The position numbers were made by a program, and so were the translations under genes. From Bacteroidota bacterium (GTDB lineage: Bacteria; Bacteroidota; Bacteroidia; 2-12-FULL-35-15), in contig CANFRC010000005.1 in NCBI GenBank assembly GCA_947449315.1, positions 1 through 64,000 of the forward strand: DNA of 64,000 nt. Reading direction: 5' to 3'. Shown piece after piece: positions 58,046 to 59,668 of this stretch (position 1 is its first letter; the number at the start of each line of letters is the position of its first letter). The notes under the pieces were generated by a model. The model was not told where the DNA came from, did no database searches, and saw only the letters and a program-made list of their open reading frames with translations.

Positions 58046-58948
58046 TTAAATTCCATGATGGAATGATAATAATACTTTCCATGCTTCTTCAACGCTGTTG
58101 TTTTCTAACAAACCTTTTGCGACATGATGCAAATGTTCCTCCAATTTAGGTAAACTCTTACCATATAATTCAAATGCCTCATTAATAGCGCCTGATTTCT
58201 TGTAGGCAATTACTTCTTCATCTGATGGTAATTTCTCAACATTTCCAAGTTGCCCTAGGTTATTGGCTGAAAGGACATTTGATTTGCGAATATACTCAGG
58301 AATCCTATCAATTCCAATACCTAAATTAAGTATTGGTTTGGCAACTTCAAACAGGGCGTCTCCGTTACTCCTGCTGTACCAGTTGCCTCCCATACGAGCT
58401 ACAAGATCTATTTTATGTGGGTCAATTAATTTGTTAGCATCTAAAACATCTTCGCTTATATGCATCAAAACCACTTCGCAAATAATTAAATTTCCTGCGC
58501 CACCTTTTTCGCCAAGTTCTATCACTTGTTTTACGATGCATTCTAATTGGGCAGGTGATTCTTTGACTCTGAAAGGTTTTACCATTTCAGAAGCAATGGG
58601 GGTGAAACCAGCCTTTGTAAATTCATTTATCCCTTTCGGATATTCAGTACTTGCAAGGCTTACCTGTTGAACCATATTGTAATTAACAACATTTATCACA
58701 ACTTCTGGAACCTCTTTTATATTGTCGTAGGTATGTTTTGTTATGCCAGTTCTGCCGCTGCGGGCAGGAGAAAATATAGCAATTGGTGGATTTGCACTAA
58801 ATACGTTAAAAAAGCTGAAAGGAGCCAAATTGGGGTTGCCATCTTTATCAATAGTGCTTGCAAAAGCAATAGGACGAGGGGCAACTGCTCCTAATAAGTA
58901 ACTGTGTAATACAGGTACTGATACTTCTTTTGGGTTAATAGTTATCAT
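58046..58948 (-). CDS. Flavin reductase-like FMN-binding protein
   Basis: The 300-residue protein has the split-barrel FMN-binding domain of the flavin reductase family, with PRPIAFASTIDKDGNPNLAPFSFFNVFSA near the N terminus and VSLASTEYPKGINEF in the middle. The C-terminal 90 residues (helical) are an extension over the basic 200-residue form. Such proteins reduce flavin for a monooxygenase or act on their own. There is no partner nearby. Confidence 0.85.
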   Translation of the reverse strand: MITINPKEVSVPVLHSYLLGAVAPRPIAFASTIDKDGNPNLAPFSFFNVFSANPPIAIFSPARSGRTGITKHTYDNIKEVPEVVINVVNYNMVQQVSLASTEYPKGINEFTKAGFTPIASEMVKPFRVKESPAQLECIVKQVIELGEKGGAGNLIICEVVLMHISEDVLDANKLIDPHKIDLVARMGGNWYSRSNGDALFEVAKPILNLGIGIDRIPEYIRKSNVLSANNLGQLGNVEKLPSDEEVIAYKKSGAINEAFELYGKSLPKLEEHLHHVAKGLLENNSVEEAWKVLLSFHHGI

Positions 58949-59071
58949 AATTTATTTTAGCTGAACAAAAGTAAGAATTTATGAAGTATCGCTAGAATCA
59001 AGTTTTAAACACTTTATCGACTAAATAAAGAATTTGTAAGAAAGTTTATGTGTTGCATTTAAAAAAAAACA

Positions 59072-59079
59072 TATATTTG
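59072..59079 (+). promoter_or_regulatory. Candidate -7 box upstream of the repeat array and tRNA-Leu
   Basis: TATATTTG is an exact match to the consensus, 79 bases before the first repeat unit. A weak upstream TTG lies 16 bases away. A transcript from here would pass through all three repeats into the tRNA. Confidence 0.45.
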
Positions 59080-59157
59080 CCTTCCTTAAAAAACAATTGG
59101 ACTGAATACTAATTCATAATTTCTAAGTAGTAGTATTTAAAAATGGTTGAATGGTAA

Positions 59158-59386
59158 GCTGATCTAGCATTTTTTGCGATGAAGCAAAAACCGTAGACGC
59201 GCCAGTTGGGTTTAAAAAATAAGTAAATAATAATGCGGATGTGGCATTTTTTGCGATGAAGCAAAAACCGTAGACGCGCCAGTTGGGTTTAAAATAAGTA
59301 AATAATAATGCGGATGTGGCATTTTTTGCGATGAAGCAAAAACCGCAGTCGCGCCAGTTGGGTTTAAAAAATAAGTAAATAATAAT
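59158..59386 (+). repeat. Three tandem 75-77 bp units derived from the 5' part of tRNA-Leu
   Basis: Units are at 59158-59234, 59235-59309 and 59310-59386. Units 2 and 3 begin with GCGGATGTGGC, identical to the first 11 bases of the tRNA at 59387; unit 1 begins GCTGATCTAGC. Each then has a TTTTTTGC/GCAAAAA hairpin in place of most of the D arm, a GCGCCAG block as in the tRNA, and a shared AT-rich end (AAATAAGTAAATAATAAT). The last unit runs directly into the real tRNA. The units cannot fold into a full tRNA. Confidence 0.85.
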
Positions 59387-59468
59387 GCGGATGTGGCGTA
59401 ATTGGCAGCCGCGCCAGACTTAGGATCTGGTGCCGAGAGGCGTGGGGGTTCGAGTCCCTTCATCCGCA
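59387..59468 (+). tRNA. tRNA-Leu (anticodon UAG)
   Basis: The acceptor arms GCGGATG and CATCCGC pair fully, with A as discriminator. The anticodon stem CCAGA/TCTGG holds CTTAGGA with anticodon TAG. A long variable arm (TGCCGAGAGGCG) and a GGGGGTTCGAGTCCC T arm fit a class II leucine tRNA. CCA is not encoded. The length is 82 bases. Confidence 0.95.
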
Positions 59469-59475
59469 CAAAAAT

Positions 59476-59517
59476 AAACCGTAAACCTTTAATTATAAAG
59501 TGTTTGCGGTTTTTTTG
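59476..59517 (+). terminator. Terminator after tRNA-Leu
   Basis: AACCGTAAAC pairs with GTTTGCGGTT (one G-T pair) and seven T follow, just after the tRNA end. Confidence 0.85.
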
Positions 59518-59668
59518 TTGGCAAAAGTCCGCACTAATTAGTCAATCCTCAGATGACGCCTTCTAAAAGCAGGCCTCTTCCATCTTTTAAAAGTTGAACT
59601 CACAAACATATTTTGCCTATTGCTAAACAAAATATCAGTTTTGTTGTTTATTGAGTAAACATTACATC

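Follow-up and report, generated by a model that had tools for sequence, protein, structure and literature searches.

The only tRNA gene in the 64,000-nucleotide stretch analysed here (the window), an intact tRNA-Leu(UAG) with the anticodon TAG at 59387..59469 on the forward strand (ARAGORN; Rfam RF00005, 53.8 bits), is preceded by repeated partial copies of its own 5' part, each carrying a hairpin. This arrangement raises the question of how such an array arises and whether it does anything for the gene that it adjoins. Three units lie head to tail on the forward strand at 59158-59386, are 77, 75 and 77 nt long, and run straight into the tRNA gene. The first-pass annotation had described three units of 75-77 bp that open with the first bases of the tRNA, the last abutting the intact gene, and we arrived at the same layout, with GCGGATGTGGC at the start of units 2 and 3. 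Each unit is built of GCGGATGTGGC (tRNA nt 1-11), the hairpin ATTTTTTGCGATGAAGCAAAAACC, a block GYAGnCGCGCCAG corresponding approximately to tRNA nt 18-31, and an AT-rich spacer. Unit 1 (59158..59234, 77 nt, 67 bits with the covariance model of the unit) begins with GCTGATCTAGC, a decayed tRNA copy matching at 8 of 11 positions, followed by the hairpin at 59170-59190, the tRNA-like block CGCGCCAG and the spacer. Unit 2 (59235..59309, 75 nt, 75.5 bits, hairpin at 59247-59267) and unit 3 (59310..59386, 77 nt, 77.5 bits, hairpin at 59322-59342) match the tRNA at all 11 positions; the spacer of unit 2 is two bases shorter, and that of unit 3 adjoins the tRNA directly. The hairpin 21-mer is exact in all three units. 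With up to one mismatch allowed, GCGGATGTGGC has three matches in the 64 kb against 0.35 expected, all of them within the array. An assembly artefact is very unlikely because the same arrangement is present in independently assembled genomes; the exact copy number, as given by a 27-contig assembly, is less secure.

Alignment to the tRNA places the hairpin, a 7-bp TTTTTGC/GCAAAAA stem, in the position of GTAATTG of the D loop. The hairpin that had been reported to replace most of the D arm is therefore present, but its extent had been overstated, as only this part of the D loop is replaced. In nearly every relative lacking the unit, the bare tRNA is also matched by the covariance model, end to end over its first 30-31 nt, with the hairpin deleted (~21 bits, E ~0.0015), and because of this match the most fitting description of the unit is a 5' half of the tRNA in which the D loop has been enlarged. 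The tRNA-like block downstream of the hairpin is weaker evidence, since its match in unit 3 was equalled by 0.2% of composition shuffles but the matches in two more distant genomes (G116 and G168, see below) by more than half. The units do not hold a complete cloverleaf: ARAGORN calls a single tRNA and RF00005 matches only 59387-59468, while the Rfam search of 59158-59386 returned no family at E values up to 1.

The position of the array relative to the putative transcription signals points to a leader. A promoter of the Bacteroidota type can be read from the sequence at 59053..59079 on the forward strand, with a TTG-like -33 element near 59053 and a -7 box TATATTTG at 59072-59079, and so can an intrinsic-terminator-like hairpin with a T run 3' of the tRNA at approximately 59478..59518 on the same strand, in agreement with the promoter-like box and the terminator noted earlier. 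Transcription is predicted to start at about 59084-59088. The same -7 box is found at the matching place in relatives, ahead of either unit 1 or the bare tRNA. The distance from the TAnnTTTG box to unit 1 is 16-21 nt in six genomes and 78 nt in the window; in relatives lacking the unit, the bare tRNA mostly starts 17-23 nt after TAnnTTTG, the same place as unit 1, and no such box was seen by eye between units. Because unit 1 usually sits where the tRNA would otherwise start, the array should be transcribed as part of the pre-tRNA, and the long pre-tRNA leader proposed by the first-pass annotation gains support from the positions of the predicted promoter and terminator. Upstream of the tRNA gene and divergent from it lies a flavin-reductase-like ORF (58046..58948, reverse strand, assigned from sequence only), which is conserved in synteny with the tRNA gene in 15 genus genomes as well as in G116 from another order, so the locus is orthologous among them.

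Several other features of the locus were observed. In the window, the segment between the promoter and unit 1 (59081-59157) is possibly a fourth unit in decay: it is roughly as long as one unit, and a short block at 59130 keeps register with the three that follow (spacing 75). Palindromic inserts with TAGCTATCGGG lie between the promoter and unit 1 in G001 (L007) and G017 (L011), where they stretch the distance to 148 and 65 nt, respectively. In several relatives (L010, L012, L023, L030 and L032), the tRNA-Leu(UAG) is 82 nt long, its D loop being one T shorter (GTAATGGCAGCC versus GTAATTGGCAGCC).

The unit was present in 8 of the 36 genus genomes searched, always immediately 5' of tRNA-Leu(UAG), with, among the relatives of the window genome (G000), three copies in G007 and G011, two in G017 and G025, and one in G001, G035 and G006 (decayed in the last). 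Searches at the class level (295 and 395 genomes) added G116 with two units and G168 with one, each directly before tRNA-Leu(UAG) and each the single representative of another order of the class. No further unit was found in a draw of 395 genomes from the phylum, and the element is therefore rare overall. An exact-pattern scan of a GTDB collection of 84,980 species hit 14 contigs; in all six where a tRNA lies nearby it is tRNA-Leu(UAG), and the others have no tRNA nearby. In this and related genomes, the unit was thus found solely 5' of tRNA-Leu(UAG) and not at the other tRNA genes examined, with 1-3 units of 55-83 nt preceding the gene. Conservation of the unit across species and orders at one tRNA gene goes beyond what had been noted before.

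How the array grows can be deduced from the differences between its units. Four arrays have tRNA-end copies that differ from one another, and in each of them the copy nearest the promoter is the worst, matching at 8, 7, 6 and 10 of 11 positions versus 10-11 of 11 downstream. Between units 1 and 2 of the window, the stretch running from the hairpin to the end of the spacer differs only by a 2-nt gap, yet the 11-mers differ at three places. The units also track acceptor-stem changes of their own tRNA (GCACATG in G017 and GCGC in G116). These patterns give good support to a model in which the array would grow by tandem duplication of a hairpin-spacer-tRNA 5' 11-mer segment and be renewed beside the tRNA: each new unit would receive the tRNA's own 5' end and so follow its acceptor stem, and the first 11-mer would never be renewed and decay. 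Repeated duplication, one of the origins suggested earlier, is accordingly well supported, with the duplicated segment now defined, and the array offers a clean natural case of repeats homogenised by a functional gene at their edge.

Isolated units are predicted to fold 1.2-3.6 standard deviations better than shuffled sequences. In four of the six units tested, one long hairpin is predicted, composed of GCG/CGC, UGUGG/CCGYA, a CAU bulge and UUUUUGC/GCAAAAA; the other two are predicted to keep the inner stem and to form a different outer stem. Base pairing is kept in 92-94% of the cells of the alignment, and one clear compensatory change, from G-C to A-U, is present in G011. Covariation showed no excess over shuffles on a wider alignment and a modest excess on a narrower one, a weakness explained by the fact that the sequence hardly varies. 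A D-arm-like outer stem (columns 8-11 with 44-47) was considered and rejected, being paired in 77% of cells versus 87-90% for the GCG/CGC and UGUGG/CCGYA stem and having no covariation support.

Taking together the anatomy of the array, its strict linkage to tRNA-Leu(UAG), the conservation of the hairpin above neutral sites described below and the duplication pattern, we favour, with moderate confidence, the reading that the array is a structured 5' leader of the tRNA-Leu(UAG) precursor, most likely acting in cis. Such a leader would probably go back to a duplication of the 5' half of tRNA-Leu, followed by conversion of the D loop of the copy into a 7-bp hairpin. The fresh tRNA 5' end brought in by each new copy would complete the outer stem of the hairpin (GCG/CGC and UGUGG/CCGYA), and selection would keep the hairpin. 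Being transcribed first, the leader structure could affect the folding, processing or yield of tRNA-Leu(UAG), and RNase P would release the tRNA from it. With the hairpin locked, the tRNA would be free to fold; an opened unit would present a second acceptor 5' strand, able to capture the 3' acceptor strand of the tRNA. A more specific version, which we consider doubtful, is that of a self-mimicking switch, in which the mimic in an opened hairpin would take the place of the genuine 5' strand in the acceptor stem and block maturation. If so, the supply of tRNA-Leu(UAG) would be switchable with a strength set by the number of repeats, and tandem duplication would refresh the mimic from the tRNA. 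In the predicted equilibrium ensemble of the pre-tRNA, which takes no account of modification, tertiary structure or the order of co-transcriptional folding, the 3' strand of the tRNA is captured by leader bases in G000, G007 and G035 (P 0.89-0.98); the predicted capture is of intermediate strength in G011 and G025 and weak in G001, G006 and G017, and none is predicted in G116 and G168. Because it is weak or absent in several genomes, 3'-strand capture is not conserved as a detail of the mechanism.

The same hairpins could instead act in trans, an explanation that we regard as possible though unlikely. Cleavage by RNase P or another enzyme in the AU-rich spacers would free one to three hairpins serving as a decoy or sponge for a protein or RNA, in the manner reported for spacers of tRNA precursors in enterobacteria. 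The conservation of the hairpin sequence as well as its structure would suit such small RNAs, as would the AT-rich spacers separating the hairpins and a variable copy number, which would tune the dose, while the lack of an Rfam match over the units speaks against them.

Between unit-bearing genomes, identity over the 23 hairpin columns of non-tRNA origin ranges from 74% to 100% and is typically 83-96%. At fourfold-degenerate sites between the same genomes, identity is 26-59% in gyrB, with 85% for the close pair G007/G025, and 26-53% in the neighbouring ORF; the spacers are 11-79% identical. Purifying selection on the hairpin is therefore probable, as its bases have been retained while fourfold sites came near to saturation and the spacers diverged, and selection is the simplest explanation because conversion by the tRNA cannot keep the non-tRNA bases. 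Most relatives lack the unit, which is thus dispensable. These data bear on a neutral origin, in which a partial tRNA duplication followed by slippage between 11-bp repeats would have left a functionless minisatellite. The signature of repeat turnover is clear, the presence of the unit is patchy, the 11-bp direct repeats permit scarless loss, and G003 has an apparent remnant, GCTTGGATGCATTTTTTATCCT, just 5' of its tRNA, with 44 nt from promoter to tRNA versus about 20. However, neutrality does not account for the persistence of non-tRNA hairpin bases at order-level distances that have brought fourfold sites to saturation or close to it and have let the spacers diverge, and such easy scarless loss should have cleared a neutral element everywhere. 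We therefore judge this explanation rather unlikely, and the selected leader remains the preferred reading.

The patchy presence across three orders could also reflect horizontal spread of a site-specific mobile hairpin that targets the 5' end of tRNA-Leu(UAG) and copies this end on insertion, and the match of the tRNA 5' copy to the host's own tRNA is what a target duplication would produce. The first-pass annotation had likewise raised a mobile repeat using tRNA ends, a suggestion that gained no support. Beyond the array, the hairpin 21-mer yields only one match, with three mismatches, in the 2.6-Mb genome, and no array of a similar kind was found among the tRNA genes of this genome that were examined. 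Covariance-model searches in the genus gave no convincing copy away from tRNA-Leu(UAG), and collections of phages, plasmids and viral contigs gave only tRNA-gene matches or chance matches and no unit. The flanking gene is the same in G116 and the 15 genus members. On a GyrB tree of 28 genomes, the presence of the unit is clustered, requiring five changes, a value as low as this being reached in 2 of 500 label shuffles (mean 8.4). Moreover, the duplication model accounts for both the host match and the decay of the first unit. Mobility is accordingly improbable; ancient presence with repeated loss fits the distribution best, with transfer as a conceivable alternative.

Some candidates that came up in these searches were set aside. 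Weak model matches in G007:C23, G007:C41, G245 and G030:C108 have no adjoining tRNA and look repetitive or palindromic. One of these contigs holds a palindromic repeat, GTCGTTGCGAG...CTCGCAATGACG (L105, G030:C108:8529-8570), whose loop GCGTTGAAGC is the same as that of the leader hairpin; the shared loop is probably due to chance, and derivation of the leader hairpin from a repeat of this type is conceivable. The tRNA-Ser(GGA) locus of the same genome as the window, considered as a similar array, proved to hold a different, broken tRNA copy. About 221 nt upstream of this tRNA-Ser(GGA) (L079, G000:C3:210638-210724) lies a second copy that lacks the 3' end and is split by a short repeat TCCGAAGGACTCCTACGGAG, and by eye the DNA between the two copies seems to encode a GIY-YIG-like fragment, YTYILKSKKDGKYYYGSTINLENRLAKHNN.

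Finally, a DNA operator, in which the palindrome TTTTTTGC-N6-GCAAAAA just 3' of the promoter would be a repressor site repeated for stronger control, would suit palindromic, repeated copies placed shortly after the predicted start but is highly improbable, since the genome has only one other, weaker match at up to three mismatches and hence no regulon of such sites, since the outer-stem bases are conserved too, and since the hairpin persists in G116 with its loop shortened from 6 to 3 nt (N6 becoming N3), a change in loop length that is easier to reconcile with an RNA hairpin than with a dimeric operator.

In bacteria, tRNA leaders are for the most part regarded as short and disposable. That one tRNA gene has retained a hairpin across order-level distances, and that this hairpin has repeatedly been re-amplified with the tRNA 5' end, suggests that selection can act on a leader as part of the gene. 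In the literature searched, mostly outside subscription papers, no such tRNA leader array is described, and the array can be compared with three known kinds of tRNA-linked sequence. It resembles the partial tRNA copies at the att sites of integrative elements in that both are duplicated pieces of a tRNA next to the complete gene. However, att-site copies usually comprise the 3' end or the part from the anticodon to the 3' end and flank large integrase-bearing elements, whereas here the 5' end is repeated in tight tandem, and no integrase was recognised by eye among ORFs of at least 80 aa from 55 kb to the end of the window or of at least 400 aa throughout the window. In enterobacteria, the 3' spacer of a tRNA precursor of the 3'ETS-leuZ type pairs with small RNAs as a sponge. 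In both cases, a stretch of a tRNA precursor outside the tRNA itself may have a role of its own, but the array is a repeated 5' hairpin in Bacteroidota rather than an enterobacterial 3' spacer. At the tyrT locus of E. coli and Salmonella, the spacer repeats encoding rtT RNA measure about 175 bp each, are located 3' of the tRNA and include its 3' end. According to a table in one report, the copy number of the rtT RNA repeat varies between Paratyphi A strains (PMC2658671). Compared by description, the units here differ in lying 5' of the tRNA, carrying its 5' end, measuring 55-83 nt and containing a conserved hairpin. The two systems have in common tandem repeats that include a piece of the adjacent tRNA, linkage to one tRNA gene, location in the same transcription unit (for the array, as predicted) and a variable copy number. 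Of the known kinds of tRNA-linked tandem repeat, that of E. coli tyrT is the nearest.
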